Positions 6,007 through 64,000 of a stretch of 64,000 nucleotides of DNA are shown here, piece by piece. The position numbers and the translations under genes are program-made. Position 1 is the stretch's first letter. Each line of letters starts with the position of its first letter. The stretch comes from Alphaproteobacteria bacterium (GTDB lineage: Bacteria; Pseudomonadota; Alphaproteobacteria; Rickettsiales; SXRF01). Under the pieces are notes generated by a model that worked only from the letters and a program-made list of their open reading frames with translations, was not told the origin of the DNA and did no database searches. Location: assembly GCA_025362975.1 (NCBI GenBank), contig JANYES010000020.1, positions 18,696 through 82,695 on the forward strand. The letters are read 5' to 3'.

Positions 6007-7049
<1,043 letters not shown>

Positions 7050-14459: not shown

Positions 14460-16322
14460 ATGACCACTAAAGGCACCAAGCAAACCACCGGCGCTAGCCC
14501 GGGCGAGCAATCGGAACATAACGCGGCGGAATTTGCGCAGAATATGGCCAAGGCGGCGGAAAAATGCCAGCTGATCATGCAGGAATTCCTGTCGCGTCAG
14601 GCTGTGGACCTGACCAAATCGCCGCTGGACCCGCTGAATATGGGCGGGGCGTTTTTGGAATTATGCGCGCGGTTGATGAGCGATCCGGTGAAATTGTGGG
14701 AAAAACAGTTCGTGCTGTGGCAGGATTATATGCATCTGTGGCAGAACGCCGCGCACCGCCTGATGGGCGACGAACAGGCGCCGATGATCGAGCCGGACAG
14801 CAAGGATAAACGCTTCAAAGACGAGGCGTGGGAACAAAACGCCGTGTTCGATTTCCTCAAGCAATCCTATCTGCTCACCGCGCGCTGGTTGCAGCATTCG
14901 GTGAAGGACGTTTCAGGCATGGACGCGCACACCTCGCGCAAGATCGATTTTTACACGCGCCAGTTTGTCGATGCGCTGTCGCCGAGTAACTTCCTCGTGA
15001 CCAACCCGGAAGTGCTTAAGGCAACCATCAACAGCAACGGCGAAAACCTTGTGCACGGGCTGGAAAACCTGCTCGAAGACATCGAGCGCGGCAACGGGCA
15101 GATACGTATCAGCATGACAGACCGCAGCGCGTTCGAGGTGGGCAAGAACTTAGCGCTCACCAAGGGTAAGGTGATTTTCAAAAACGATTTGATGGAACTG
15201 ATCCAATATGAGCCGAGCACCAAGGAGGTGTTTAAGACGCCGCTGCTGGTAATGCCAGCGTGGATTAATAAGTTTTACATCCTCGATTTACAGCCGGAAA
15301 ATTCGTATGTTAAATGGCTGGTGGATCAGGGATACACAGTGTTTGTAGTGTCGTGGGTCAATCCGGACGAAAACCTGAGCCAGAAGAATTTTGACGATTA
15401 CATGGCCGAAGGCCCGCTGGCCGCGCTCGACGCGATTGAAAAAGCGACCGGCGAGACGGAAGTGAGTTTAACCGGGTATTGCTTAGGCGGTACGTTGCAG
15501 TCGATTACGCTAGCATGGCTGCATGCCAATAAGCAGCAGCACCGCGTGAAATCGGCGACATATCTGACGACCATGATCGATTTCGCGGAATCGGGCGAAT
15601 TGTCGGTGTTTATCGATGAAGAGCAGTTGAAGGCGATGGAAGCCAAAATGTCGCAGACCGGCTATCTCGAGGGCGCGGACATGGCGATGACGTTCAACAT
15701 GCTGCGCGCCAACGATTTGATCTGGTCGTTCGTGGTGAATAATTATCTGCTGGGCAAGGACCCCTTCCCGTTCGACCTGCTGTACTGGAATTCGGATTCG
15801 ACGCGCATGCCCGCGACGATGCATAGCTTCTATTTGCGCAACATGTACCAGAAAAATTTGCTGATCAAGCCGGGTGAGCTGGTGATTGGCGGGGTGCCGA
15901 TTGACCTCACCACCATCAAAACGCCGACCTATATCCTGTCGACACGCGAAGACCATATCGCACCGTGGAAATCGACGTATACGGCGACGCAGACCTACTC
16001 GGGGGAAATCCGCTTTGTGCTGGCGGCTTCGGGACATATTGCTGGCGTTATTAATGCGCCGTATAAAACGAAATATGCCCATTGGGTGGATTTCAACGAA
16101 TCGCTGTTTCCGGAAGAAAAGGTGCATGGCGGGAAAAAATATCCCAAATCGCCAGATAAATGGGTAGAGAACGCCACTGAAGTGCCTGGCTCTTGGTGGG
16201 GCGACTGGATTACGTGGCATAAGAAATTCGCAGGGCCGAAAGTGCCCGCGCGCCAGCCGGGCGACGGCAAGTTGAAGCCGATCGAGAATGCGCCGGGCAG
16301 CTACGTGAAGGTCAACGTTTAA
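14460..16322 (+). CDS. phaC: Class I poly(3-hydroxyalkanoate) synthase PhaC
   Basis: PhaC polymerises 3-hydroxyacyl-CoA into storage polyester at the granule surface. The 620-residue length fits class I enzymes. The N-terminal domain is followed by an alpha/beta-hydrolase core. The lipase-like box is GYCLGGT with the nucleophile Cys341; the other members of the triad are Asp498 in TREDHIAPW and His526 in ASGHIAGVIN. FVVSWVNPDENLSQKNFDDYM and the C-terminal PGSYVKV are typical family blocks. The catalytic set is intact, so the enzyme should be active. No phaA, phaB or phaZ is adjacent; the downstream region holds only a short possible remnant (17172-17273). The start ATG at 14460 has no clear Shine-Dalgarno. 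Confidence 0.96.
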   Translation: MTTKGTKQTTGASPGEQSEHNAAEFAQNMAKAAEKCQLIMQEFLSRQAVDLTKSPLDPLNMGGAFLELCARLMSDPVKLWEKQFVLWQDYMHLWQNAAHRLMGDEQAPMIEPDSKDKRFKDEAWEQNAVFDFLKQSYLLTARWLQHSVKDVSGMDAHTSRKIDFYTRQFVDALSPSNFLVTNPEVLKATINSNGENLVHGLENLLEDIERGNGQIRISMTDRSAFEVGKNLALTKGKVIFKNDLMELIQYEPSTKEVFKTPLLVMPAWINKFYILDLQPENSYVKWLVDQGYTVFVVSWVNPDENLSQKNFDDYMAEGPLAALDAIEKATGETEVSLTGYCLGGTLQSITLAWLHANKQQHRVKSATYLTTMIDFAESGELSVFIDEEQLKAMEAKMSQTGYLEGADMAMTFNMLRANDLIWSFVVNNYLLGKDPFPFDLLYWNSDSTRMPATMHSFYLRNMYQKNLLIKPGELVIGGVPIDLTTIKTPTYILSTREDHIAPWKSTYTATQTYSGEIRFVLAASGHIAGVINAPYKTKYAHWVDFNESLFPEEKVHGGKKYPKSPDKWVENATEVPGSWWGDWITWHKKFAGPKVPARQPGDGKLKPIENAPGSYVKVNV

Positions 16323-21079: not shown

Positions 21080-23281
21080 TTATTCCAGATTTTTGAGCGA
21101 CACCCTGAACCAGAACGACAAGGACGGCTTGATATCAAGCAGGTTAATATAATCCTTGCCGGCGACGGTTGTCAAAGTGATGCATTCGTTTTTGTAAATA
21201 AGCCCACCATAGGCCGTAACCATTTGATCATTGCGCAGGTCGCGGCTGCTCGACGCGGTGACGCTCCACTCGTCGGTCAGGTTGATGGCACCGTTGCCGT
21301 TGATAACCTCGCGGTTGCCGAGGATGGGGTCGTTATGCAGCGAAAGGTAGGAGGCGTTGATACTGTAGGGGTTTTTGTTGTAACCGGCGTCCCACTCGGA
21401 GCGGTTGGGCTTGAAGTCGGAATCGTCGAGGCGGAATCGGTAGCCGAAATTGAATGGCGCGTAGATGAAGGCCATTTTGCCGACATAGTCGGAGAAGTGA
21501 CTGGTCAGATCGTTGGAAATCGGGAAGATCGGGTCGTTGTTGACGCGGTATTCCTGACCGACGAGGAAGTCGACATATTGCTCGGATTTGAGCTGGGCCT
21601 GGCCGCGGATACCATAGCTCATGCGGGGGCCGTTTTCGATGCGGTCGTATCCGGCGAAGCGGTCGGAAGAGAATAAATTCGCGTCGGTAAATTCAGGCAG
21701 GAGCGAATCTTCGTTCGGGATTTTTTCCGGGTTGCCGCCGCCGGGGCTGACGGTCAGGTTGACCACCGGCTCGATGGTGATGGAAGATGATTGCAGGCGG
21801 TTGATGAGCGGGTAGCGCCATGTAACGGAAACCTCGGGGATTTCGCGCCCCGTCACGCCGTTATAGTGAGTGCCGTTGCCCAAGAGCACGTTGCTTACGC
21901 TGTAGACGTCGGTTCGCAGCTGTGCCTGGAACTCGATGGACTGGCCGTTGGCGGTGATGTAAGGCAGGTTCCAGCGCGCGGTGCCGGAGAGGCGGCGGGA
22001 TTCGTCGCCGGTGACGCGGTAGAGCGCCATTGTGTTGCCTTCTAAGGTCACGCGGGAGTTGTATTCAAGCGGGTTGGACTGCCATGTGGCAAAGCCCAGC
22101 GGGGCGACGACGGGGATGAGCTTGGAATTGTCCTGTCCGGTTAGGCCTTGGAACGACAGGCCCTGCACGCTGGCATACATGCGGTCTGAGTCGCCGACGA
22201 AATTGAAGCCTTCGGCGTAGATTTTCGAGGTGAGCAGGGTTTCGTTGCTGAAATTGTAGAGGTGTAGATAGGTGTCGTCGGTGGCGCGCTGGGCGCGGAA
22301 GCCCCAGTCGAAATTCTGGTCGATAATGAAGTCGCCCTTAGCGTCGTAATTGCCGCGCACCTGATGGCCGTAGGTTTCGTTGCCGGCGGCGTCGGTGTTG
22401 GGCGACGAGGTGATGGAACCTTGAAAATTCATGGCGCCGGAGTCAAATTTCTGGCGGTAATTTCCTTCCATGACAGCGCCTACTTTGCTGGTCAGGATCG
22501 GGGTGAGCGTGATGTCTTTGTCCTGCGCGATCGAGTAGTAGACAGGTTGTTTGTAGACTTCGCCTAAATTGCGCGAGCGCAGGAAGGACGGGGTGAGCAG
22601 GCCCGATTCGTTTTCGGCGCCGGGGGTGGAATGCGAAAAATACGGCGAATAGATGACGGGCGTGTCCCAGAGGGCGAGTTGGGCGTCTTCGTACCGAACT
22701 TCCTGCTTTTCGTTATCGATGGTGGCTTCTTTGGCTTTGATTGACCAGAGCGGAGATTTGTTATTGCCGTTTTCGTCGTGGCAATTGCACGGCGTGTAGG
22801 CGGCGCGGAAGAGTTTGGTGACGTCTTCGCTCACGCGGTGGGCGGCGTTGGCCACGAGCACGGAATTGTCGGACAGGCGCATTTTTACCTGATGGATGAC
22901 GCCGGCTTTTAAATCGTCCTGGAATTCTAGTTTGTCGGCGAAATAGACGTCGCCGGAGGGGGTGAGCATGCTGATATTGCCAGCGGCGTTGACGGTGTTC
23001 TGGGCTTGGTCGTAGACGAGCTGGTCGGTGACGATGACGGTGTCGCCTTGCGTGATTTCCACGTGGCCGGTGGCGGTGACGATGTCGTTATTCTGGTCGT
23101 ATTCGAGTTTGTCGGCGATGAGTAATACCGGCTGTTTTTGCGAGAAAACGGGCTCTTCGCGTATTTTTTTGGCGGGCTGCTCGGGGTCTTTCTGAAATTT
23201 GAAATTAGCGTAGGCGTCGGGCGATGCGGTGCACAGCAGGACGGACGCCAACGCGAAGGCGGCAGCGCGCGGATATTTCAT
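21080..23281 (-). CDS. lptD: LPS-assembly outer-membrane protein LptD
   Basis: LptD forms the outer-membrane channel that inserts lipopolysaccharide at the cell surface with LptE. The start is placed at ATG 23281, which gives a signal peptide (MKYPRAAAFALASVLLCTASPDAYA); the open frame to 23407 lacks one. The OstA/LptD beta-jellyroll is visible at LIADKLEYDQNNDIVTATGHV and VIVTDQLVYDQAQNTVNAAG. A cysteine pair CNCHDENG lies in the linker, then the barrel domain with SPYFSHSTPGAENESGLLTPSF. The protein ends with an aromatic strand (LSFWFRVSLKN). At 734 residues it is typical for the class. It is the first gene of the lptD-surA operon. Confidence 0.93.
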   Translation of the reverse strand: MKYPRAAAFALASVLLCTASPDAYANFKFQKDPEQPAKKIREEPVFSQKQPVLLIADKLEYDQNNDIVTATGHVEITQGDTVIVTDQLVYDQAQNTVNAAGNISMLTPSGDVYFADKLEFQDDLKAGVIHQVKMRLSDNSVLVANAAHRVSEDVTKLFRAAYTPCNCHDENGNNKSPLWSIKAKEATIDNEKQEVRYEDAQLALWDTPVIYSPYFSHSTPGAENESGLLTPSFLRSRNLGEVYKQPVYYSIAQDKDITLTPILTSKVGAVMEGNYRQKFDSGAMNFQGSITSSPNTDAAGNETYGHQVRGNYDAKGDFIIDQNFDWGFRAQRATDDTYLHLYNFSNETLLTSKIYAEGFNFVGDSDRMYASVQGLSFQGLTGQDNSKLIPVVAPLGFATWQSNPLEYNSRVTLEGNTMALYRVTGDESRRLSGTARWNLPYITANGQSIEFQAQLRTDVYSVSNVLLGNGTHYNGVTGREIPEVSVTWRYPLINRLQSSSITIEPVVNLTVSPGGGNPEKIPNEDSLLPEFTDANLFSSDRFAGYDRIENGPRMSYGIRGQAQLKSEQYVDFLVGQEYRVNNDPIFPISNDLTSHFSDYVGKMAFIYAPFNFGYRFRLDDSDFKPNRSEWDAGYNKNPYSINASYLSLHNDPILGNREVINGNGAINLTDEWSVTASSSRDLRNDQMVTAYGGLIYKNECITLTTVAGKDYINLLDIKPSLSFWFRVSLKNLE

Positions 23282-29906: not shown

Positions 29907-31180
29907 TCGTTCTTCTGGTGATCTAAATCCATTTTTTTCGACAACCACCACAATAAAGCCAATCCCGGAAGGGCCAGCAGCGAGGCGAAGGTGAAGAAAC
30001 CTTCCCAGCCAAGGGCTTCGGCGATGCGGCCTGAGGGCGTGGACAGCCATGTGCGCCCAAAAGCGGCGAAGGAACTCAGCAGTGCGTATTGCGTGGCGGT
30101 GAAGCGGACATGGGTCAGGCTGCTCATGAAGGCGACGAAGGCGGCGGTGCCCATGCCGCCGCTGATGTTTTCGAGCGTCACGGAGAGTATCAGGAAATGG
30201 ACGTCGGCACCGAGGCGGGCCTGCACCACGAACATCAGGTTGGTGAACATATGGGCGATGCCGCAGATCCACAGGGTGCGGGTGATACCGAGGCGGAAGA
30301 CCAGCGCGCCGCCGAAAAAGCTGCCGACGATGGTGGCGATGACGCCGTAGAGCTTCATGACGGTGGCGAGCTGCTCGCCGGTAAAGCCAGTGTGCAGCAG
30401 GAAGGGCGTGGTCATGACGCCCATGAAGGCGTCGGCGAATTTATAAAGCACGATGAAGAGCAAAAGCGCCAGCCAGTGTGGGCGAGTCATGAAATCGGCA
30501 AAGGGGAGCACGACGTGCTCGCGCAGCCACAGCGGGGCGCTGAGCCGGGTTTGGGTTGCTTCCACGGCGGCGCTCTGGGGAGGTTCTCTGGCGATGAGCG
30601 TGGTGAGGATGCCGACGCCGACGAGGGTGGACATGATGAGGTAAATCGCGTGCCAGCTGATGTGGTCGGACAGGTAAAGCGGCAAGGCGGTGGAGGCGAT
30701 CATGCCGAAGCGGTAGCCGAGGACGACAGCGGCGGCCCCTGCCCCGTATTGTTCTGGTTTTAAGCTTTCGACGCGGTAAGCGTCGATGACGATATCCTGT
30801 GAGGCGGAGAAGATGGCGACCAGCAACGCCATGAAGGCGGTGTTCCAGACGTTGATTGCGGGGTCGGTGAGGCTTAAGGCGAGCAGGCTGGCTACGAGGG
30901 CGAATTGCGTGGCGAGCAGCCAACCGCGGCGGCGGCCGAAGAGCTTGCACAGAACCGGGAAATGCACGGCGTCGATCAGCGGCGACCAGAGGAATTTAAG
31001 CGCGTAGGGAGTGCCGATAGCAGCGAACAGGCCGATGGATTTCATGTCAAGCCCGGCTTTGGTCAGCCACGCGCCGAGGGTGGTGGCCGTGAGCGCCAAC
31101 GGTAAGCCGGAGGAAAAACCCAGCGCGAAGACGATGAGGATGGCGGGTTTAGAATAGACGGAGAAAAAGTTTTTAAGCAC
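29903..31180 (-). CDS. ampG: AmpG-like muropeptide MFS permease
   Basis: AmpG imports GlcNAc-anhydroMurNAc peptides for cell-wall recycling. The family opening is visible (FALGFSSGLPLALTATTLGAWLT), followed by YALKFLWSPLIDAVHFP, GRRRGWLL and the motif ASQDIVIDAYRVESL typical of AmpG. About 12-14 membrane segments are present. The open frame extends to 31231, but GTG at 31180 (VLKNFFSVYSKPAIL) has a Shine-Dalgarno AAGGAA and starts where the family starts, so I prefer it. The resulting length of about 425 residues fits the short AmpG type. No beta-lactamase or LysR gene is near. Substrate assignment follows the family and is not proven. Confidence 0.85.
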   Translation of the reverse strand: MLKNFFSVYSKPAILIVFALGFSSGLPLALTATTLGAWLTKAGLDMKSIGLFAAIGTPYALKFLWSPLIDAVHFPVLCKLFGRRRGWLLATQFALVASLLALSLTDPAINVWNTAFMALLVAIFSASQDIVIDAYRVESLKPEQYGAGAAAVVLGYRFGMIASTALPLYLSDHISWHAIYLIMSTLVGVGILTTLIAREPPQSAAVEATQTRLSAPLWLREHVVLPFADFMTRPHWLALLLFIVLYKFADAFMGVMTTPFLLHTGFTGEQLATVMKLYGVIATIVGSFFGGALVFRLGITRTLWICGIAHMFTNLMFVVQARLGADVHFLILSVTLENISGGMGTAAFVAFMSSLTHVRFTATQYALLSSFAAFGRTWLSTPSGRIAEALGWEGFFTFASLLALPGLALLWWLSKKMDLDHQKND

Positions 31181-40449: not shown

Positions 40450-40524
40450 GACCCCTTCATCTAGCGGTTAGGATACCGCCCTTTCACGGCGGGTGCACGG
40501 GTTCGATTCCCGTAGGGGTCACCA
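40450..40524 (+). tRNA. tRNA-Glu (anticodon TTC), ICE attachment site
   Basis: The sequence folds as a complete tRNA. The acceptor GACCCCT pairs with AGGGGTC, followed by discriminator A and encoded CCA. The D arm holds AGCGGTTAGGA. The anticodon arm is CCGCC-CTTTCAC-GGCGG with anticodon TTC. The T arm is CACGG-GTTCGATTC-CCGTA-like. An integrase gene starts 165 bp downstream in the same direction, the standard arrangement for elements that integrate into a tRNA 3' end. Confidence 0.97.
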
Positions 40525-49546: not shown

Positions 49547-50256
49547 ATATGGCACAGCTATTCAAGGGCAAGCGGGGTTTGGCAGAAGCACCCGGCAATC
49601 CGTATCTGAGCGCCCGCAAACAATGGAATGAGCATACTAAAGGCATCATTAACGCTGCCCGGTTATGGCAGGCGGTGGCGCTTTTATGTCTTATGATCAC
49701 ACTGGCTGCTATTGGCGGTGTGCTGCATCTGGCCAGTCAGTCTAAATTTATTCCCTACGTTATCGAAATGGATAAGCTTGGCCAGACCGTGGCCGTGGCA
49801 CCGGCGCAGTTAGCCGCTCCGGTCGATCAACGTGTGGTGCGCGCCAGTCTGGCGGCCTTCATAAGCAATGCACGGCTGGTGACGCCGGATATTGCCTTAC
49901 AGCGTAAAGCCGTTTTGGCTGTCTATGCCATGATGCATGCAGATGATCCGGCAGCAGCCAAAATGACTGCCTGGTTTAACGGCAATGAGGCCAGCAATCC
50001 ATTTCAGCGTGCCGCTAAAGAAACCGTTGAAACGGAAATCGTCTCCGTCATTCCACAAACGCCGGACAGCTGGCAAATCGAATGGAATGAAAAGCTGTTT
50101 GACCGGCAGGGCGTGCCTATTGGTCAGCCGTATCGCATGAAGGCACTGGCCACGGTGGAAATAGTGCCGCCGGACGCCTCCACCACGGAGGAGAAGTTAC
50201 GGCAGAACCCGCTGGGTGTCTTTGTAAAGGATTTTAGCTGGTCGAAACAAAACTAA
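49543..50256 (+). CDS. trbF: Conjugal transfer protein TrbF (VirB8-like)
   Basis: A 237-residue bitopic inner-membrane protein. A basic cytoplasmic N-terminus with NPYLSARKQWNEHTKG is followed by one membrane segment (AVALLCLMITLAAIGGVLHL). The periplasmic VirB8-type domain contains SKFIPYVIEMDKLGQTVAV and WQIEWNEKLFDRQGVPIGQP. It helps assemble the channel core with TrbG and TrbI. Start overlap with trbE supports a single operon. Confidence 0.94.
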   Translation: MNMAQLFKGKRGLAEAPGNPYLSARKQWNEHTKGIINAARLWQAVALLCLMITLAAIGGVLHLASQSKFIPYVIEMDKLGQTVAVAPAQLAAPVDQRVVRASLAAFISNARLVTPDIALQRKAVLAVYAMMHADDPAAAKMTAWFNGNEASNPFQRAAKETVETEIVSVIPQTPDSWQIEWNEKLFDRQGVPIGQPYRMKALATVEIVPPDASTTEEKLRQNPLGVFVKDFSWSKQN

Positions 50257-55852: not shown

Positions 55853-56446
55853 TTACGGCATATATAGCCGCTGCAATTCCAACAAAGGCTCAAAATTCCC
55901 TCGATCCGCTTCTTTAACCGCGCGTATATAATCTAAGCGTATAGGGCTTTCACGGTTCATCTCGGCTGGCCAGATTGGCAGATTCTTACCATGCTGTTTC
56001 AGCCAAATATCCGATAGCATGCGTGACCAGCGGCCATTACCATTAGGAAATGGGTGAATCCACACGGCACGGTGATGTAGGCGTACTGCTTGCTCAACCA
56101 AATCCATGCCTGTCTTATCCCAATAATGTAGATCATCGACCATTTTGCGCAGTTCTTCCTGGATCATATATGCCGGAACGCCGATATTAGGGTTTCCACT
56201 GGTTCTGACTTGCCCTGCCCATGTCCAGACGTTGCCATACATTTCTTTATGCAGCCGTGTTATCCAATCAACCTTAAAGGCGGCAGAGCGCCGGGAAGGT
56301 TTTCCCGCCAGATATTTCAATACTGCTTTGGCAATATTTTCGGCCTCCGCCACATAGAGTGCTTCTATGGTAACAATGTGCAACTTTAGCCCGGAAGCAT
56401 CGTCAATGGGGGTTGCCCCCTCTATGGTTGGGAAAACAGGCATCAC
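55853..56446 (-). CDS. Fic-domain protein (mobile mystery protein B type), probable toxin
   Basis: A 197-residue Fic protein. The active motif is complete, HPFPNGNGRW, with catalytic His131 and Arg139, so AMP (or other NMP) transfer to a target protein is possible. Blocks GATPIDDASGLKLHIVTIEA, FKVDWITRLHKEMYGNVWTW, AGQVRTSGNPNIGV and HHRAVWIHPF match the MobMystB family, found on mobile elements. The start overlaps the upstream XRE gene by 4 bp. I infer a toxin-antitoxin pair that stabilises the ICE; the target and any inhibitory helix are unknown. Confidence 0.88.
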   Translation of the reverse strand: MMPVFPTIEGATPIDDASGLKLHIVTIEALYVAEAENIAKAVLKYLAGKPSRRSAAFKVDWITRLHKEMYGNVWTWAGQVRTSGNPNIGVPAYMIQEELRKMVDDLHYWDKTGMDLVEQAVRLHHRAVWIHPFPNGNGRWSRMLSDIWLKQHGKNLPIWPAEMNRESPIRLDYIRAVKEADRGNFEPLLELQRLYMP

Positions 56447-56838
56447 GCGCTCCAGATTTTACTTTTAGGGCCAGCCATCAGCTCATAGAAAAAACGTTGC
56501 TCAACGGCTTTCGCAGATGAGCCTGTCAATCCCTGTGCTTCCAATGAAGAGGTTCCCTGTACCACGGAAGTTAGCCAGCGCGCCTTCTTGCGCGCATGCT
56601 TTTCCAGAAGCGTTTGCTCGTCAATAATCTCTTTAGGAGTCAGGTTTAAGCCTAATACCTCAGCTATTTTAGAAGCGGTTTCAAGAGAGACTTTAGCGCC
56701 GTTATCTGAAAAAAAACGCTGGATCGTAGGCAAAGAAATACCCGTCATCTCAGCAAGCCGAGTTTGACTGATACCCAGATGCTCCCGCCGCTGGTTTATC
56801 TTATGCACCATGTTTGAGATAAGAGACGATTTTTCCAT
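56443..56838 (-). CDS. XRE-family regulator paired with the Fic protein (probable antitoxin)
   Basis: A 131-residue protein with an N-terminal HTH (HKINQRREHLGISQTRLAEM, TGISLPTIQRFFSDNGAKVS, LETASKIAEVLGLNL). A helical tail ends FFYELMAGPKSKIWSA. The start is taken at ATG 56838 (MEKSSLIS); the open frame to 56907 reads AT-rich upstream DNA. It overlaps the fic gene by 4 bp, so the two are cotranslated. The role as antitoxin/autoregulator is an inference from the layout. The region upstream (56840-56960) is very AT-rich and is the probable promoter. Confidence 0.8.
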   Translation of the reverse strand: MEKSSLISNMVHKINQRREHLGISQTRLAEMTGISLPTIQRFFSDNGAKVSLETASKIAEVLGLNLTPKEIIDEQTLLEKHARKKARWLTSVVQGTSSLEAQGLTGSSAKAVEQRFFYELMAGPKSKIWSA

Positions 56839-56962
56839 ATGATTTCCGATTACCAAGCTTATTTGTTCTATTATATATGATTTATATCTAATAGTAAATA
56901 CTATCATATAAGATGTATTTTACAATTAATATCATTATAATACAGTATACTATTTCTTATTG

Positions 56963-57490
56963 TTATTCCCATATCAAAATTGGCCGAATAACACTGATAA
57001 TCCGTGACTTATCCATCAATCCAAAGTACCGGCCATCGAATGATTTTGGGCTATAGTCGGACATCAGCAACACGGAATGATCATCCAACACTGCGATGTC
57101 TGCTTTAACCGGCGATAAAGGCTTTCCCTCTAAATCCTTATCCAAAGGCTTACTGTTCGGCACAGATACACCATTGACGAATACACCGGCAGTAGTCATT
57201 TCTACATGATCATTGGCAGCAGCCATGATTTTTTTGATCATGTAGCCAGTACCGCCGGGACAAAATCCGGCGCCGATATAGCCGCGTTCTTTAGCTTGCC
57301 GGAATATAGCCGTATCGGTAGGGCAAAAGATGACCAACGCACCTTTGGTAATAGGTTCACCCGTCATCCAGTAAATGCCACGCGGATAGCTGCCGGTGGT
57401 ATTGATCCGAATTCCGGCCAGTGGGGTTGTTATGGTGACTATGGTAAGACAGGCTATGGTCGCTATGGCTATTATGCATAGTTTTTTCAT
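56963..57490 (-). CDS. traF: Conjugal transfer S26 peptidase TraF
   Basis: TraF is the signal-peptidase-like enzyme that cyclises the TrbC pilin in RP4. A signal anchor (LCIIAIATIACLTIVTIT) is followed by TGSYPRGIYW with Ser34, then Lys86 in MIKKIMA and Asp152 in SFDGRYFG. The spacing Ser-Lys 52 and Ser-Asp 118 equals that known for RP4 TraF (Ser37, Lys89, Asp155). The catalytic set is therefore intact. Its start overlaps the end of traG by 4 bp. It is 175 residues long. Confidence 0.93.
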   Translation of the reverse strand: MKKLCIIAIATIACLTIVTITTPLAGIRINTTGSYPRGIYWMTGEPITKGALVIFCPTDTAIFRQAKERGYIGAGFCPGGTGYMIKKIMAAANDHVEMTTAGVFVNGVSVPNSKPLDKDLEGKPLSPVKADIAVLDDHSVLLMSDYSPKSFDGRYFGLMDKSRIISVIRPILIWE

Positions 57491-59328
57491 GGTATACCTG
57501 CCGTTATAAGTTTATCGGTGATCTTCGGAGCCGGGACTTCCGAGCGCTTCTGGAATACGGGGTCTTTAAAATACAGCGGCTGTTGACCATAAATGGCCGG
57601 AAATCCGGCGCAATAAATCACCATATCGCCCGGTTCCTGTATCATGCCATGGCTGTCTTTTTTCGGGCCGGGCATGCGCATGCTTTCATCGACGGTAAGC
57701 AAAGGCCGCTGCACCTCCTGGAACGTGCGCGATACCTGCCCATGCATTGCGCCGATGCGTCTGCCGCTGGTGGTAATCTGTTCTTTGACAATGGTAGTCT
57801 GCCCAGTCAGTTTGGACAGGTGTTCTGCGGTTTCCAGCCGATTGGGCGGGAAAGCAGTCTGTATATGGCAGTTGGAGGTAATGCTTTCTTCCCTTCCATA
57901 GCCGGATGCCGGATTCTGCAGCTGGTTGATGTCCTGCACGATGATGTAGCATTTGATGCCGTAGCCAGCGACAAAGGCCAAAGACTCCTGCATGATCTCC
58001 AGTTTGCCGAGGCTGGGAAATTCATCCAGCATCATAAGCAACCGATGCTTATAGTGCGGCTTGTGCCTTCCATGCTCAAACTCCATGCGGTCAGCCAGCA
58101 ACCGGATGATCATATTGACCACCACGCGCACTAACGGGCGCAACCGGGCTTTATCGTTAGGCTGGGTGACGATATAGAGGCTGACCGGATTATGGTGATT
58201 CATCAGATCATGGATGCGGAATTCCGATTTGCTGACATTTTTGGCCACTACCGGGTCACGATAGAGCGATAAATAGGATTTGGTGGAGGAAAGCACGCTG
58301 CCTGCTTCCTCGTCGGCACGATCAAGCATATCGCGTCCCGCTGCGGCAACCGTTGGATGCGGCGCGCCGTTACGATGTTTATAGACTGTCATTTCTTTCC
58401 ACAATTCTACGATTGGCTTTGCCGGATTGGACAGCATGGCATCCAGCGCCGGTAATGTGGCAATCTTTCCTTCATGATGGCATTTATAGAGCAAGTGCAA
58501 CATGGTGCCGACAATCAGCGATTGCGCGGTTTTCTGCCAATGGTCGATAAGTCCCTTGCCATCAGGATCGACCAGTAAAGTGGCCAGATTCTGCACATCG
58601 CCAACCTCATGGCCGGTTCCCAGCCGGATTTCTTCCAAAGGATTAAAGCCGACGCAGGAAATCGGATTGGCCGGATCGAAGCGCAACACTTTATTGCTCG
58701 CATGTCTTTGCCGCCATCCGGCAGTCAGTTCCCATAGCTCGCCTTTGAGATCGAGGATAACCGCGCTCTGTTTCCAGCTGAGTAATGTCGGGATGACCAG
58801 CCCCACGCCTTTGCCGCTGCGCGTGGGAGCATAGCACAAGATATGCTCCGGGCCGTTATGGCGCAGATAATGGATGCGATTATCCTTATCCCGCCATGCC
58901 CCGACATAGACGCCTTCATTGCCCAGCAATGCCGCTGCTGTTATATCGCTTTTACCCGCCCAGCGTGCCGATCCGTGGATAAATTCATGGGCTACCGATG
59001 AATTGGCGGTTACGACATGCCGGAAAAAGGCCACCAGCATAAGGGCAGCGGAGACAACCAGTCCAACAGACGCGGCTTTTCTAAGCGCCATTGGATAGAG
59101 ATCATAATACTGCAATGCCCATTCCACACTCTTCCAGGGGGCATAGAGATGGTGGAAAGATTCCCCCAACGTCGCCTGATAGGCAAACTCATGGGCAAAT
59201 AGCTGTGTGGCAGATGCCAGCCCAAGAAAGAGTGAAGCGAACACCATTGCGCACTCCACCTTTCTATCAGGTCGAACTTTGCCTGTCCTTACTTGCGGCC
59301 CGATAGCATTGTTGCGTTTCTCGGCCAT
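57487..59328 (-). CDS. traG: Type IV coupling protein TraG (VirD4-like)
   Basis: TraG links the relaxosome to the mating channel and pumps DNA. The 613-residue protein has two N-terminal membrane segments (MVFASLFLGLASATQLFAH and AASVGLVVSAALMLVAFF). The nucleotide loop is APTRSGKGVGLVIPTL at residues 167-182, and the Walker B is LLMMLDEFPSLG. FNPLEEIRLGTGHEVGDVQN and GYGIKCYIIVQDINQLQNPA are family blocks. It follows traI directly (stop 59329, ATG 59328). Confidence 0.96.
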   Translation of the reverse strand: MAEKRNNAIGPQVRTGKVRPDRKVECAMVFASLFLGLASATQLFAHEFAYQATLGESFHHLYAPWKSVEWALQYYDLYPMALRKAASVGLVVSAALMLVAFFRHVVTANSSVAHEFIHGSARWAGKSDITAAALLGNEGVYVGAWRDKDNRIHYLRHNGPEHILCYAPTRSGKGVGLVIPTLLSWKQSAVILDLKGELWELTAGWRQRHASNKVLRFDPANPISCVGFNPLEEIRLGTGHEVGDVQNLATLLVDPDGKGLIDHWQKTAQSLIVGTMLHLLYKCHHEGKIATLPALDAMLSNPAKPIVELWKEMTVYKHRNGAPHPTVAAAGRDMLDRADEEAGSVLSSTKSYLSLYRDPVVAKNVSKSEFRIHDLMNHHNPVSLYIVTQPNDKARLRPLVRVVVNMIIRLLADRMEFEHGRHKPHYKHRLLMMLDEFPSLGKLEIMQESLAFVAGYGIKCYIIVQDINQLQNPASGYGREESITSNCHIQTAFPPNRLETAEHLSKLTGQTTIVKEQITTSGRRIGAMHGQVSRTFQEVQRPLLTVDESMRMPGPKKDSHGMIQEPGDMVIYCAGFPAIYGQQPLYFKDPVFQKRSEVPAPKITDKLITAGIP

Positions 59329-60921
59329 TTACATTCTCCTGCCGCGTTTGCGGATAATGCCTTGAGCATTTTCAGGGGGATGGTTATTTGCATTACTGGC
59401 AAAAAGCGCCTGCCTTTGCTGTTCCATGGCAGAATCGGCAAATACCAGGTTTAGCCTAGCACAGGCTGCTACTGCCTGCTGGCGAAACGCCTCTGTTCCG
59501 GTAATAGCCAGTTGCCGTCCGAAACGCTGCACGGCTATGTTTAATGCTGCAATAACCGCATCATCACCGGCATGTTCACTGAGACGCAATAGCTTGCCGT
59601 CATCGCGCAGCACTGTTTGCGCAATCTGGTAATGGACAGTGCCGCGTTTGGTGACTGCTTCGATTTTGCCGCCTGCATGGTAATTGAGGCGGTCAGCTAC
59701 TTCACCGCCGATGGCATTTATCCGTACTGGCGCTCTTTCGTAACGGTTGCGCAATACTTCTAATGCCTGGGTATTGCCCTCCCATGCCTTGGCTTTCAGC
59801 CAGTCATACCAGACGGCTTGCTTGCCTTTGGCGTAAATATTGCGCCAGTCTTCCTGATAATCTTGCTGAATGGCGCGGATTTCTTTAACCAAGCTTTCAG
59901 AAGCAGCATGATGCAGTACGGCTTTGGCCAGCCTGCCTCTGGTCGGCTTTATGACCGCGCGTTTCGCCTGCGCCGCTTTTTTAGCGCCTTCGACACGCCG
60001 GTCTTTCCGATGATTGGCTCGTTCCTGTAACACTGTATGCCGCTGCGTCTGCTGCAGGCGCTCGTGCTGGTATAAAGCCCATAGCTGGCGTGTATCGATT
60101 TTCGATGCCATGGGCTTTATTTCATAACTGCCGGTAATATTTGCATTTTGCGCAATGCCGGGCTGGAATGCTCCAAGCCTTTTCTCCAATGCGCTTTTGG
60201 AAAAACTGCGATTGATGGAGCTGGCTTTAGCGTTAATGCCGTTCTTGGCAGTAATCACCAATCCGTTCCCGCGTTCGGATAAGGTCAGACTATTTTTTGC
60301 CAACGTCTTATGCAGTTCATCCCAAGATGAAGCTGCCAGCAGTTCCGACAAACAGCCGCGCTTGATCCAACCGATCAGGCTTTCGATGCCTGCCGATTTT
60401 TCCATATCCTGCGCCTTGGCTTCGCCGGGCGTCATGTGGGCAATATGGTTATCGGTCGCCAGGCCATATTCCTGTTCCAGCGCCTGGCATAATTGCCCAA
60501 GAGTCTTCTTATCGAAATACGGCTCATGCGCGGTATAGCGCTGGGGGTGGATTTTATTAATGGCGATATGGATATGCGTATGATCGGTATCGTAATGCAC
60601 GGCGCTGACACGCTGGTGTTCGCTATAGCCTAATGCTTCACATACGCGGGTTTCTATGGCGTAAAGAGTCGCAGGCGTTGGGTTGTCACCTTCCCGGAAG
60701 GACAGCAGCAGGTGGTAGGTTTTATCCATCCGGGTACGGGTGTTTTTGGATTGTACCAGTTCGACTTCCTTTGCTGCCCAGTCCGGATGCTCAGCCTGGC
60801 AGTTGGTGATGCGGATTTCGCCCACGCGCTCGTTTTTACCCTGCGCATTAGTAATATACGCCACCAGTTTCGAGAACCGGCTTTTATGGGCGTTACTGAA
60901 CTCGATGCGCTTGGCAATCAT
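59329..60921 (-). CDS. traI: MOB-P relaxase TraI
   Basis: TraI nicks oriT and stays bound to the 5' end of the transferred strand. The first 130 residues carry the MOB-P motifs: nucleophile Tyr22 (LVAYITN), Ser74 (LLLSFREGD) and the metal-binding HTHIHIAINKIHP, with His116 in the H-x-H. These positions equal those reported for RP4 TraI (Tyr22, Ser74, His116). The C-terminal 250 residues hold a helical Arg/Lys-rich linker (RRVEGAKKAAQAKRAVIK) and a folded end (LRLSEHAGDDAVIAALNIAV). No primase or helicase domain is seen. It is 530 residues long. Confidence 0.95.
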   Translation of the reverse strand: MIAKRIEFSNAHKSRFSKLVAYITNAQGKNERVGEIRITNCQAEHPDWAAKEVELVQSKNTRTRMDKTYHLLLSFREGDNPTPATLYAIETRVCEALGYSEHQRVSAVHYDTDHTHIHIAINKIHPQRYTAHEPYFDKKTLGQLCQALEQEYGLATDNHIAHMTPGEAKAQDMEKSAGIESLIGWIKRGCLSELLAASSWDELHKTLAKNSLTLSERGNGLVITAKNGINAKASSINRSFSKSALEKRLGAFQPGIAQNANITGSYEIKPMASKIDTRQLWALYQHERLQQTQRHTVLQERANHRKDRRVEGAKKAAQAKRAVIKPTRGRLAKAVLHHAASESLVKEIRAIQQDYQEDWRNIYAKGKQAVWYDWLKAKAWEGNTQALEVLRNRYERAPVRINAIGGEVADRLNYHAGGKIEAVTKRGTVHYQIAQTVLRDDGKLLRLSEHAGDDAVIAALNIAVQRFGRQLAITGTEAFRQQAVAACARLNLVFADSAMEQQRQALFASNANNHPPENAQGIIRKRGRRM

Positions 60922-61274
60922 AGCTTGCTCACCTTCTCGAACAGTAAGCGTTGTGTCGCTTGAATCTCATCCAGCAGGCTATTAATTTTCGGCACGATCT
61001 GCCCCGCGCCGAATAGCTTTAATCGCTCGTCATTGGTCAGCCACATTTTGAGCAGGCCACCCAGTCGTCCCAGGTCGCCATTAATCCTGACCAGTTCCAA
61101 CCCAATGTCAGCGTCAAAGACGGCCTTGGGCTGATAGTGCAATCCGACACTGCGCAGGTAAGCGGCAACGGATAAACGGCAGTTAGTCGCATGACTTTTT
61201 ATCGCTGCCGCCTCAGCCGGAAGCACCGGCACCTGAAGCCGCCGGATTCTCTGTCTCGATGATTTATTGCTCAT
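60918..61274 (-). CDS. traJ: Relaxosome protein TraJ (oriT-binding)
   Basis: A 118-residue basic protein that in RP4 binds an inverted repeat next to the nic site and positions TraI. Start ATG 61274 has GGAGGGG before it; an open frame to 61355 would run into oriT. The family pattern is visible: RIRRLQVPVLPAEAAAIKSH, LSVAAYLRSVGL, and a C-terminal helix LGRLGGLLKMWLTNDERLKL. It overlaps traI by 4 bp. It is the first gene of the reverse operon traJ-traI-traG-traF. Confidence 0.9.
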   Translation of the reverse strand: MSNKSSRQRIRRLQVPVLPAEAAAIKSHATNCRLSVAAYLRSVGLHYQPKAVFDADIGLELVRINGDLGRLGGLLKMWLTNDERLKLFGAGQIVPKINSLLDEIQATQRLLFEKVSKL

Positions 61275-61308
61275 CTTACCCCTCCCCCCAGCCCCGCAGG
61301 GCAGGTCA

Positions 61309-61375
61309 TCGTTGAGTGCGAAGCGCGAATAAGAAAACGTAATGTTGAGTAACATTACACATCCTGCCCTCCACC
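61309..61375 (+). other. Origin of transfer (oriT), IncP-like
   Basis: Within this segment are GCGAATAAG (61324-61332), known in RP4-type oriT, a perfect inverted repeat GTAATGTT-GAGT-AACATTAC (61339-61358) as candidate TraJ site, and the nic consensus ATCCTG^C at 61361-61367. Nicking should fall between 61366 and 61367 on the plus strand. By analogy with RP4 the DNA to the right (toward 64000) enters the recipient first. Confidence 0.85.
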
Positions 61376-61536
61376 TACCTTCATCTTACAGTATGTGTTG
61401 CTTCTTCGGGAGGGGTGGACATGTAGGAAATAAAAACCCACCTCGGAATTATTCAAAGATGGGTTATAAGTCGGCTAATATTCGCTTAGTAGCATGATGA
61501 CATTTGTTACTCCACGACGGAGGCGAAGGTTTAAAA

Positions 61537-61627
61537 GGCTGGAGCCTTAAGGCTGGCAGTCAAACCCTCAACACGTAAGCGCAGCGAACGGAGCGGGCCG
61601 AGGGTTGACTGTCAGACGGCTTCAGCC
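61537..61627. repeat. Large imperfect inverted-repeat element 1 with CGTAAGCGCAG tip
   Basis: Outer arms GGCTGGAGCC (61537-61546) and GGCTTCAGCC (61618-61627), and inner arms CTGGCAGTCAAACCCTC (61553-61569) and GAGGGTTGACTGTCAG (61600-61615), form a long stem with one mismatch per arm and one bulge. The tip holds CGTAAGCGCAG (61574-61584). It lies about 170 bp from nic on the predicted leading side. A related element lies at 63426-63550. Confidence 0.55.
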
Positions 61628-61701
61628 AAAACCGCACCCCATACCCTGCTGTGTGGTTACGCATGGGGCAGGTGATGCTAAAAACATGTGTGTTGCACCT
61701 G

Positions 61702-62004
61702 TCAAAACAAGGCAAGCTGGCCGCCTTCTTCCTCGCCGTCATCATCCGGGGATGACTTGGCACCCATAATTGCCAGTGCTACCGCACGGGCGTATTCTTC
61801 CACGCTCGGCGCAGCCTCGATTTCCCACATGGGGGCAAAATGGCTCCGGTATCCGGTTTCACTTACAGGAATCCTACGGCGTGGTTCGTGCGGGCTGGTA
61901 AATTCAAAATGGGCATAGTCGGCGGTGGCAAAATAACGTGGCCGGTAATGCACCAGCATTTCCTGTGCCTCAATGGTTAAGGTAAAATGTATGTCCTGCT
62001 GCAT
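61702..62004 (-). CDS. Hypothetical ICE leading-region protein
   Basis: A 100-residue protein (MQQDIHFTLTIEAQEMLVHY...) of unknown function. Blocks YRPRYFATADYAHFEFTSPH and RRRIPVSETGYRSHFAPMWE are regular and look folded. The acidic tail DDDGEEEGGQLALF ends with a hydrophobic QLALF peptide. That tail resembles the sliding-clamp binding motif (Q-L-x-L-F), which is an inference only. It starts 4 bp after the stop of the preceding reconstructed gene, so the small genes from ardC down to here form one operon on the minus strand. Confidence 0.65.
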   Translation of the reverse strand: MQQDIHFTLTIEAQEMLVHYRPRYFATADYAHFEFTSPHEPRRRIPVSETGYRSHFAPMWEIEAAPSVEEYARAVALAIMGAKSSPDDDGEEEGGQLALF

Positions 62005-62008
62005 GGTG

Positions 62009-62222
62009 TCACGCTCCTATTTTAAAGAGGGTCGGTTGCTGGTAGCGTCCTGATGCCAGGCGCTCGTCCACAGGGCGGTGATCCTCGCGCAAGGCGTCGA
62101 ATAAGGCCAGTTGTGCGGCGAGGGTCGGCATAGGCTGCGGTCAATTGGGCGCGGCGAAGCTCCAGAATGTCTTTCCAGCGATAGGCTTTGCCTTCGATAG
62201 CAATAAAGGGTGCACGGGTCAT
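62009..62222 (-). pseudogene. Small ICE gene with a +1 frameshift
   Basis: The frame from ATG 62222 encodes MTRAPFIAIEGKAYRWKDIL and ELRRAQLTAAYA, then runs into an Arg/Pro-rich tail ending at 62022. In the next frame from about 62130 the DNA encodes PTLAAQLALFDALREDHRPV and DERLASGRYQQPTLFKIGA, stopping at 62009. Homologues I recall from mobile elements have exactly this joined form, with QLALFD in the middle. So one base is extra near 62130 in this copy, or the gene uses a frameshift. The function is unknown. Confidence 0.55.
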
Positions 62223-62455
62223 ACTGCTGCCCCTTCCGCTGCTATTATAGCTTCATGCACTTCCACCAAGACGCTACACAGGGCGTAGTACATTCTTTCT
62301 ATCTGCCAGCCTTCAAGCGCGGTAAGGGGCTGACCGTCTTCGTAAAGCATAATGTCGGTCGCTTCCTCAATGGCGGCTTCCGCTGCTGTGAGGGCTTTAA
62401 TTAACTTTTTGCAGGTTGCCATCTTGGGCTTGCCGTTCTTATTTGGGGTTTTCAT
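62219..62455 (-). CDS. Small hypothetical ICE protein
   Basis: A 78-residue, mostly helical protein (MKTPNKNGKPKMATCKKLIK...), with KALTAAEAAIEEATDIMLYE and LEGWQIERMYYALCSVLVEV. An internal ATG (MATCKKLIK, 62422) is an alternative start. It lies 3 bp after ardC and overlaps the next gene by 4 bp, so it is operon-linked. No family is assigned. Confidence 0.55.
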   Translation of the reverse strand: MKTPNKNGKPKMATCKKLIKALTAAEAAIEEATDIMLYEDGQPLTALEGWQIERMYYALCSVLVEVHEAIIAAEGAAV

Positions 62456-62458
62456 GGT

Positions 62459-63352
62459 CTATGCTCCCGCCTGTGATGATTGATAGCTATGCAGGTGATC
62501 GGCTGCTTTCTGCGCATGGCTGGCAGCGGTGAATATCGCCCGTTTGTCGTCTTTCAGGACTTTCAACCATGATACGATATAAGCGGCGTGATCCTCACGG
62601 GTCTCCGGCGTGATGCCAAGGTCGGCACACAGGAAGGCGGCACCTATTTCCGCAACGAGTTCCTCCATTGCATAACCGGAATCGGCAAAACGCTTGCGGC
62701 CTAAGTCCCGGTCGAGGCGGGTTTCGTGGCGCGTCCAGTGGGTCATTTCATGGGCAAGGGTGGCATAATAGCTTTCACCATCGCGGAATGTCGGAAACTC
62801 CGGCATCTGTACAATGTCCTGAGAAGGGCTATAAAATGCCTGATTGCCTCCATGCTTAACAGTTGCACCGGTAGCGGCAAAGAAGCCTTCTGCGGTGTCC
62901 ATCCGGTCAATATCTTTATTGATAGGTGCGATAGTTGCATAAAAATGGTCAGGCAAGCCGTCAACCTGCTCGGCATTAAAAACTGTGTATCCCTTCATGA
63001 AGGGGATAGTTGTTTCTACGTCTGCGCCTTTATCGTCGGTGCCGGTCTTCTTGAAGGTATCGGCATAAACGACCAGTGAGCCTTTTTCGCCCTTCTTCAC
63101 CTGTCCGCCAAGATCTGCGGCCTGCTTATAGGTTATCCATAAGGGGCTGTTAAAACCGCATTCCATAGCCGAAGCCCAAAGCATCAGCACATTAACGCCA
63201 CGGTAGGCTTTGCCTCCGGCACGCAATGGCCGGGATATATGTCCGGCTGCATGTCCTGATTGCCACGGTTGCAACCATGTCAGATTGCCGCGCTCAATAT
63301 CGGTAATGATTTTGTTGGTCACACGGCTGTAAATATCAAGTTTCTCGCTCAT
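62459..63352 (-). CDS. ardC: ArdC-like antirestriction protein with zincin metallopeptidase domain
   Basis: ArdC proteins bind single-stranded DNA and protect incoming DNA from restriction. The 297-residue protein has the N-terminal ssDNA-binding block (VTNKIITDIERGNLTWLQPW, RAGGKAYRGVNVLMLWASA, GFNSPLWITYKQAADLGGQV, KKGEKGSLVVY). The C-terminal zincin domain has HEMTHW at residues 201-206 and the third ligand probably in YAMEELVAEIGAAFL. It is the farthest intact gene in the leading region, the usual place for antirestriction genes. A large inverted-repeat element begins 74 bp upstream of its start. Confidence 0.92.
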   Translation of the reverse strand: MSEKLDIYSRVTNKIITDIERGNLTWLQPWQSGHAAGHISRPLRAGGKAYRGVNVLMLWASAMECGFNSPLWITYKQAADLGGQVKKGEKGSLVVYADTFKKTGTDDKGADVETTIPFMKGYTVFNAEQVDGLPDHFYATIAPINKDIDRMDTAEGFFAATGATVKHGGNQAFYSPSQDIVQMPEFPTFRDGESYYATLAHEMTHWTRHETRLDRDLGRKRFADSGYAMEELVAEIGAAFLCADLGITPETREDHAAYIVSWLKVLKDDKRAIFTAASHAQKAADHLHSYQSSQAGA

Positions 63353-63425
63353 TTCTTTGACTCCCTTGTTAATAAAAAGTTGCGCAATGCAACTTTAACT
63401 AGGCCAGCGCCAATGAGCGGGGGTT

Positions 63426-63550
63426 GGGCGTCAAGACGAACGGCGAGGGAGGGGAATCGCCCGGCCTGCACGGAGCGTAAGCGTAGGAAGGTTGGGGATG
63501 CCCTCGCCGTTCCTCGTCCCGGTCTTGATGCCCTGGGGGCTGCAAGCCCC
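63426..63550. repeat. Large inverted-repeat element 2 with CGTAAGCGTAG tip
   Basis: The left arm (63426-63449, GGGCGTCAAGAC then GAACGGCGAGGG) pairs with the right arm (63501-63533, CCCTCGCCGTTC ... GTCTTGATGCCC). There is one mismatch and a 9-nt bulge on the right. The loop holds CGTAAGCGTAG (63476-63486), ten of eleven bases shared with element 1. A second hairpin GGGGCT-GCA-AGCCCC (63536-63550) follows. It lies directly upstream of ardC. Confidence 0.6.
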
Positions 63551-63562
63551 ACTTACTTTAAA

Positions 63563-63588
63563 CAAAAAAAAGACCGCATAATGCGGCC
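63563..63588 (-). terminator. Rho-independent terminator (minus strand)
   Basis: On the minus strand CCGCA-TTA-TGCGG forms a compact stem followed by a run of T (the A-run at 63564-63571). It would end a transcript coming from the right, such as the one that once carried the fragment at 63647-63769, and isolates ardC from it. Confidence 0.6.
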
Positions 63589-63646
63589 TTACTGCTAAAA
63601 CTGATAAGTTACTGGGCGGGCACGAAGCCCGCTCAGGTGATGAGGA

Positions 63647-63769
63647 TTATTTAGTTTTGGATTCAACACGAAGGCTGGTTTTGCCGACGAACGGCATACA
63701 TTCGAGTTGAATGTTGAAGCCTTTAACATCCTTGCCGCTGCAAAAAGCTGCCGTAATGCTGGCCGCAGC
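63647..63769 (-). pseudogene. C-terminal gene fragment
   Basis: A 40-codon frame with gene-like content (AAASITAAFCSGKDVKGFNI, then QLECMPFVGKTSLRVESKTK) ends at a TAA at 63647. A stop stands directly before its first codon and no start exists, so only the 3' end of a gene remains. A terminator follows in the same direction at 63563. The family is not recognised. Confidence 0.35.
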
Positions 63770-63853
63770 TTAAGCAATTTTTTGTCTTAAAATGATACGA
63801 GATTTGAGCTATTATGTGTCAATATTTAAAATTTAAGAGCTACAAGGATAAAA

Positions 63854-64000
63854 ATGAGAAAACGCATGTTATGGATTATCGTAGGTATAGCAGTGATTGG
63901 CGCAGCGGCATGGGGACCGATGGTGAGTAGTAATGTCGAACAGGCAAAATACGAGGTGGTGGAATCGCAGGGCAATATCCAAGTCCGCGACTACGCGACG
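63854..64000 (+). CDS. SOUL-family haem-binding protein, 5' part only
   Basis: The first 49 residues are visible. A signal anchor (MLWIIVGIAVIGAAAWGPMV) is followed by SSNVEQAKYEVVESQGNIQV RDY. The phrase x-x-YEVVE-x-x-G-x-I-x-x-R-x-Y is the characteristic start of the SOUL domain. AAGGAT stands before the ATG. The frame runs off the window. It may be chromosomal DNA beyond the ICE or cargo; its orientation is opposite to the leading-region genes. Confidence 0.7.
   Translation, partial: MRKRMLWIIVGIAVIGAAAWGPMVSSNVEQAKYEVVESQGNIQVRDYAT

Follow-up and report, generated by a model that had tools for sequence, protein, structure and literature searches.

A predicted single-strand promoter ahead of ardC in a Rickettsiales integrative and conjugative element, and the covarying hairpin family to which it belongs

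Promoters that act on single-stranded DNA have been studied in the plasmids F and ColIb. Frpo of F is credited to Masai and Arai (1997), as cited in the available text of PMC11541004. As far as the accessible portion of PMC9849209 describes them, Frpo1 and Frpo2 carry −35 and −10 boxes, and Frpo2 is located upstream of ssb, yfjA, yfjB, psiA, and psiB. Here we analyze two hairpins in a 64,000-nucleotide stretch of DNA from an alphaproteobacterium of the order Rickettsiales (contig JANYES010000020.1, positions 18,696 to 82,695; hereafter called the window), which carries an integrative and conjugative element (ICE). Element 1 (61537..61627, plus strand) and element 2 (63426–63550, plus strand) both reside in the predicted leading region, and the second is found near the start of ardC. 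The original prediction, made from the letters of the window alone, had presented them as two related elements with the geometry of Frpo-type promoters. Element 2 is one of a family of covarying hairpins positioned ahead of mobile-element genes, and we consider it somewhat probable that it is a promoter active on the entering single strand.

The long inverted repeats proposed at 61537–61627 and 63426–63550 are present, and both fold better as single-stranded DNA than dinucleotide-shuffled versions of themselves (z −3.55 for element 1 and −3.21 for element 2, with 1 of 200 shuffles equally good in each case). The main hairpin of element 2 (63426..63533, plus strand) is formed by basal arms (63426–63437/63522–63533), an outer stem (63435–63449/63501–63515), and an inner stem (63460–63467/63489–63496). 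The family core GGGGAATCGCCCGGCCTGCAC (63451..63471, plus strand), which differs from the consensus by one change, covers most of the 5′ side of a bubble between the two stems. At the apex is GC-GTAA-GC (63475..63482, plus strand), a mini-hairpin with a GNNA loop, and most relatives carry a GNA loop at this place. DNA mini-hairpins with GNA or GNNA loops and two G-C pairs are described in the available text of PMC4686876 as extremely stable, with a Tm of 78 °C for GCGAAGC. A small hairpin, GGGGCTGCAAGCCCC, follows at 63536..63550 of the plus strand, and G-rich look-alikes of it were recognized by eye after several relatives.

Element 2 is present as a single copy within its own genome, and 61 plasmid records matched it by blast. 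A scan of the collected loci with the core GGGGGATCRCCCGNCCTGCAC, in which four changes were allowed, identified 18 copies with 0 or 1 change, compared with two matches in 498 kb for the reversed pattern used as a control. Alignment of these 18 seed copies revealed a near-invariant, asymmetric bubble (AGGGGGATCR opposite GANR) flanked by an outer and an inner stem. A search of 37 sources with the covariance model R1 yielded 48 matches up to an E value of 1, among which the window match (63428–63515, plus strand) scores 83.9 bits. After the two weakest matches (23.8 and 18.7 bits) were dropped, the family comprises 46 copies in 28 of the 37 sources, on plasmids of alpha-, beta-, and gammaproteobacteria. 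This search omitted L001–L003, L008–L013, L018–L037, L041, and L052–L062, which are sub-stretches or weak element-1 loci. Most sources were chosen because they matched the element, and thus the copy counts are no frequencies. Of the cells in the full set of 48 rows (45 of them distinct), 94.2% are paired, and 187 carry double changes, versus 55.3 in shuffled alignments and no more than 58 in slid controls.

Outside these loci, an exact core was found in one viral contig of a collection of 2.9 million. The copy in L039 gave no match among 50,697 phage records and none among 20,395 Escherichia coli records. At the gathering score, Rfam has no family for element 2, and window positions 56000–64000 together with five loci give only traJ-II and group II introns. 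Furthermore, the core in four 17-base spellings was not found in the open-licence literature, where no title on such an element was found either.

The position of the hairpins relative to genes is a second line of evidence. Gene starts were sought by script on the side that each element faces, with the far side as a comparison. A faced gene start was found for 44 of the 46 copies, with 34 of the 44 at a distance of 66–105 bp, 11 at 74–76 bp, and 39 using ATG. On the far side, 36 copies have an open reading frame (ORF) start, only 6 of which are at 66–105 bp and none at 74–76 bp. Script and annotation differ in a few cases: the annotation puts two starts at 68 and 75 bp where the script chose 32 and 33 bp, and another at 190 bp where the script chose 136 bp. 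The gene that element 2 faces in L048 is separated from it by a transposase gene. In the window, the distance of 74 bp proposed earlier is essentially correct, because the R1 match ends 75 bp before the ATG of ardC (62459..63352, minus strand; ArdcN plus a zincin-like metallopeptidase). A small leader hairpin (63376..63396, no strand assigned) is located between element 2 and the ardC ribosome-binding site, and an inverted repeat of this kind was seen in 28 of the 28 leaders examined, a strand-neutral feature (17 v 17) counted without a chance control.

ArdC is encoded behind at least 9 of the 46 copies. Other products encoded there include ArdA, RadC, DUF2958, ParB-like, PF03230 antirestriction, N6_Mtase, DUF3846, and MerR proteins, and some of the proteins have no Pfam family. 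In L047, near-identical cassettes at 14900–14994 and 30200–30294, each extending from the hairpin to the ribosome-binding site, precede ardC and an N6-methylase gene.

These arrangements bear on the alternative that element 2 is a priming site (a single-strand origin, sso, or initiation site, ssi), at which the folded transferred strand would draw primase or RNA polymerase for second-strand synthesis, expression not being its purpose. The strand logic would be alike, several copies can occur per plasmid, CTG is invariant in the CCTGCAC of the 18 seed copies, and Toprim/primase-like genes are present on part of the plasmids that carry element 2. Moreover, the accessible text of PMC4595007 describes a folded sso being read by RNA polymerase into primers in F and many plasmids. 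However, priming needs no set distance to a start codon, such as that kept by the 34 copies at 66–105 bp and likewise by element 1, and duplicated cassettes before different genes are better suited to expression. We regard a dedicated priming function as quite unlikely.

Far less probable still is that the element is an intrinsic terminator, an insulator, or a scattered repeat of the repetitive extragenic palindromic (REP) kind. It is true that the hairpins are intergenic, that a terminator-like hairpin with a T run (63570..63590, minus strand) is found upstream of element 2, and that TTTT comes after element 1 when the minus strand is read. Nevertheless, element 2 has no T run at either foot (the terminator scan was blind to long-loop hairpins), and the polarity toward genes and the conserved core both speak against this idea. 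A dispersed repeat is also hard to reconcile with the finding that, among 385 genomes from the class of the window, just 7 contain the core with at most one mismatch, at 11 sites (the reversed pattern in none).

Element 1 proved to represent a second family. Its core, ACACGTAAGCGCAGCGAACGGAGCGGGC, begins at 61571, and 13 copies are known here. Model R1 does not match element 1, the only match in the window being that of element 2, and we therefore rejected the idea that the two form one family. The proposed relationship nevertheless survives in part. The words CGTAAGCGYAG and ACGGAGCG are indeed present in both loops, the apex CACGGRAGCGNAGCGAA, which contains a GCGNAGC mini-hairpin, is common to both families, and so is the placement before genes. 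Because apex and placement are held in common, the shared words are more than chance.

Element 1, the copy of it in L004, and a copy from Mesorhizobium were used as blast queries and returned 13, 10, and 12 plasmid records, respectively, from which eight stretches were taken in addition to L049. The 13 copies have ACACGGGAGCGNAGCGAA-GGAGCGGGC in common with small changes, and their arms differ. A strict spelling written from these copies gave 0 matches for its reversed control in 1.08 Mb; a looser pattern was discarded (252 matches versus 253 for the reversed control). For six arm pairs named from the alignment, 79.5% of the cells are paired versus 60.5% after shuffling, and 15 cells carry double changes versus 6.4 in shuffled and at most 10 in slid alignments. 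A gene start lies 73–109 bp from the core in 11 of the 13 copies (nine found by script at 73–107 bp, and two by annotation at 109 and 89 bp), the exceptions being the window and L086. In L079, L083, and L085, a DNA methyltransferase gene comes after the first small gene. Both families meet on the Mesorhizobium plasmid L049, where element 1 (at 1345 and 3854) and element 2 (21590–21675) share one strand and each copy precedes a gene.

Homologues of element 1 at the same place are present in L004 (86%), from a second ICE of the same genome, and in L051 of genome G402 (90%). In both, the hairpin is directly before a gene on the opposite strand, which in L004 encodes DUF6876 and lies between oriT and element 1. 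In the window, remnants of this DUF6876 gene region persist at 61428..61551 on the minus strand (blastn with 8901–9400 of L004 gives 77% over 77 bp and 82% over 34 bp), and most of the gene is missing.

A third line of evidence concerns the strand that is transferred. In the window, oriT (61339..61368, plus strand) contains GTAATGTT-gagt-AACATTAC as an inverted repeat, and a motif scan places the start of a nic motif of the IncP type, CATCCTGCC, at 61360; the cleavage point is presumably that given by analogy with RP4. Because the motif is on the plus strand, this strand is predicted to be transferred, rightward, which agrees with the original prediction and places both elements in the leading region. 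This region contains element 1, an ORF of 100 amino acids, ardC, and element 2. As had also been claimed, the leading-region genes are on the minus strand, at least the two ORFs with known or conserved relatives (61702–62004 and ardC). Homologues of the 100-amino-acid ORF (61702..62004, minus strand) are listed with PF27190, and the ORF has no Pfam match of its own at an E value of 0.001.

An IncP-type nic motif was sought in 10 loci and is convincing in seven of them (the window, L004, L043, L044, L045, L047, and L064). Six nic-bearing loci hold 15 copies of element 2, and 13 of the 15 are carried by the nic strand and oriented with transfer, although L044/L045 and L043/L064 are close relatives, so that there are fewer independent cases. 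With the relaxase strand alone as a guide, all nine copies in L046, L048, L049, L063, and L066, where a convincing nic was either not found or not sought, are opposite the relaxase strand. For element 1, the window and L004 have it on the nic strand, and L049 and L082 have it opposite the relaxase strand.

Which strand folds was examined with 33 copies of element 2 that are less than 85% identical. A GNA loop with two or more closing pairs is present in 18 of the 33, versus 1.4 in shuffles (maximum 7 in 2000). Counts of CGNAG (22 of 33) were not used, because they include matches outside the loop, the one in the window among them, and because CTNCG (0 of 33) is rare in shuffles as well (0.8). 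Paired columns read on the element strand hold 39 G.T and 8 A.C cells, and in the outer stem the ratio is 11 to 2, versus 30.9 to 27.6 in shuffled columns (one-sided binomial p 0.019). Folding energy as such was dropped as a test, since 29 of 33 copies favor the element strand but composition explains this preference. For element 1, the plus strand is above baseline in 3 of 3 copies, a result given no weight because the copies are few and related. For element 2, we rate the strand evidence as moderate at best.

A considerable number of observations weigh against a single-strand promoter. The 27 G.T and 4 A.C cells of the inner stem match the ratio in shuffled columns (25.4 and 4.2), and the excess of G.T over A.C cells is reached by 143 of 1000 shuffles, or 116 of 1000 for the outer stem. 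Once composition is removed, folding energy has no strand preference (−2.49 observed, −2.74 shuffled, p 0.34). Two copies of element 2, in L043 (10320–10404, plus strand) and L064 (15848–15933, minus strand), are opposite to the predicted transferred strand; both correspond to a single homologous site next to oriT of two Caulobacter plasmids, and the MerR-like gene that they precede runs against the leading genes. One of the copies in L047 lies at a distance of 23.5 kb from nic, and 26 of the 61 matched plasmid records are typed as non-mobilizable. In L004, ardC has no element 2 according to the covariance model. Element 1 has no intact gene directly behind it in the window, and its copy in L086 faces no gene. 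The best pair of TTGACA and TATAAT boxes over element plus leader scores on average 6.5 of 12, versus 6.9 for shuffled sequence (in 27 of the 46 copies, selected by their spacing), and a TTGAC at the foot of the arm would also place a −10 box outside the duplex. The original prediction had pointed to TTGAC in each left arm; the word is there, on the minus strand, but it is no family feature, being present in only 3 of the 27 element-2 relatives examined, and we rejected it as a promoter box.

Part of this evidence is what would be expected of a leader element that works on double-stranded DNA or as an mRNA 5′ leader, either by binding a regulator or by controlling translation, and that has no function as a single strand. 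The best argument for such an element is that in the two inverted copies the arrangement relative to the gene is preserved but that relative to the strand is not. The near-fixed spacing to the ATG, the extra inverted repeat beside the ribosome-binding site, and the corrected folding energy can also be read in this way. However, no sigma-70-like site is listed between the terminator-like hairpin (63590–63570, minus strand), which would shield ardC from upstream transcription, and the ardC ATG, so that a double-strand leader would have no listed promoter upstream of element 2 within this insulated stretch. Outer-stem mismatches and GNA loops favor the strand opposite the mRNA, and Rfam has no family for the element. 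We consider a double-strand or mRNA leader unlikely.

We therefore prefer a single-strand promoter, because there is one hairpin per gene at a near-fixed distance from the ATG, on the transfer strand in most copies where this could be judged, before anti-restriction genes and with no ordinary promoter recognized, and because two families are alike in this way. Thus, the Frpo-type interpretation holds with regard to covarying hairpins, spacing, anti-restriction genes, and strand (13 of 15), and fails with regard to sigma-70 boxes, which do not rise above shuffles, and to TTGAC. The observations named beforehand as speaking against it were elements that occur outside leading regions and show no bias in orientation, or elements that act only as terminators. 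Neither pattern was seen, yet there are two inverted copies and one element-1 copy, that of L086, without a gene. Because no boxes rise above shuffles, element 2, if it is a promoter, lacks the −35/−10 design reported for Frpo1 and Frpo2.

It is likely that hairpins of the element-2 family let genes be read off the single strand that enters a new cell. In the window, the plus strand would be nicked near 61366 and would enter the recipient 5′ end first, so that ardC and then element 2 would become single-stranded. Element 2 might then fold in the cell into its arms, asymmetric bubble, inner stem, and mini-hairpin, and RNA polymerase could load on a duplex that offers a ready-made bubble, since a bubble between two duplexes would resemble an open promoter. 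Transcription would start inside the bubble and proceed leftward across ardC with the plus strand as the template, the AGGGGGATCR side serving as template, and ArdC would be made before the second strand. In double-stranded DNA, the promoter would presumably be shut off. Element 1 may have played an equivalent role for the gene that has decayed in the window.

More tentatively, the two families could constitute a second independent class of single-stranded DNA promoter, a possibility that we rate at slightly less than even. In such a class, a bubble or conserved loop would replace the −35 and −10 boxes, the apex would be capped by GCGNAGC-type mini-hairpins, and cassettes before anti-restriction and other genes in three proteobacterial classes would make up an early regulon triggered by entry. 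If the proposal is true, anti-restriction genes would give the incoming element early protection, and early expression from the entering strand would have arisen in more than one form. The families would also provide a sequence tag for early and anti-restriction genes, including those for several proteins that have no Pfam family. Moreover, they would make it possible to test whether RNA polymerase can initiate on single-stranded DNA from a bubble that lacks promoter boxes.

The ICE of the window begins at a tRNA-Glu gene (40450–40524), and the window extends to the end of its contig (C3) in a 3.26-Mb genome. ORFs for an integrase and for VirB- and TraG-like proteins (named by eye) follow the tRNA gene, and the genes for the TraI relaxase (59329–60921) and a NikA-like TraJ (60918–61355) come before the leading region. 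A search for an att repeat of the tRNA-Glu gene in the window found no common word longer than 12 bases. Likeness to L004 past ardC ends near 63755, judged by eye, and a SOUL-like gene (also by eye) starts at 63854, within the stretch (63600–64000) where the right end of the ICE would be expected. Adjacent genes for Fic-domain and helix-turn-helix (HTH) proteins, a toxin-antitoxin-like arrangement, are located at 55853–56907 on the minus strand. L004 (C16:28000–45000) is the second related ICE of the genome and has a similar oriT; identity with the ICE of the window is 60% for TraI, 79% for VirD4, and 90% for ArdC. In L005, a TraI relative (89%) and a near-identical oriT are followed by a transposase-like ORF (by eye), with neither hairpin. 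The loci of TraI relatives L005–L007 and L014–L017 gave no element-2 match with model R1 and no element-1 match by blastn at an E value of 0.01.

Several described systems resemble the elements in part. The traJ-II RNA of Rfam (RF01760) belongs to the same oriT region and matches at 61290–61369 on the minus strand of the window, overlapping oriT, and at 6653–6752 in L047; it precedes traJ and differs from the hairpins in place, strand, and sequence. The sso1 of ICEBs1, as presented in the available text of PMC4595007, is likewise an ICE-borne single strand that folds, located downstream of oriT. However, its place is after the relaxase gene and its function is second-strand synthesis, whereas here there is one copy per gene at a near-fixed distance. 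The Frpo-like candidates in the accessible part of PMC11541004 are also predicted single-strand promoters upstream of leading genes, anti-defence genes included. Those candidates were sought by BLAST with five known Frpo/ssi sequences plus a −35/−10/UP consensus, features that the present families lack. The leading region of F itself has ParB-like and antirestriction genes, its ParB-like gene having the same two Pfam domains, although model R1 has no match up to an E value of 10 in F positions 50000–67500. The closest parallels are Frpo1 and Frpo2 of F, which, in the available text of PMC9849209, are also hairpin cassettes before early genes of the leading region, more than one per plasmid, with the transferred strand as the template. 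They differ in having promoter boxes, where element 2 instead has a near-invariant bubble and its family GNA mini-hairpins.

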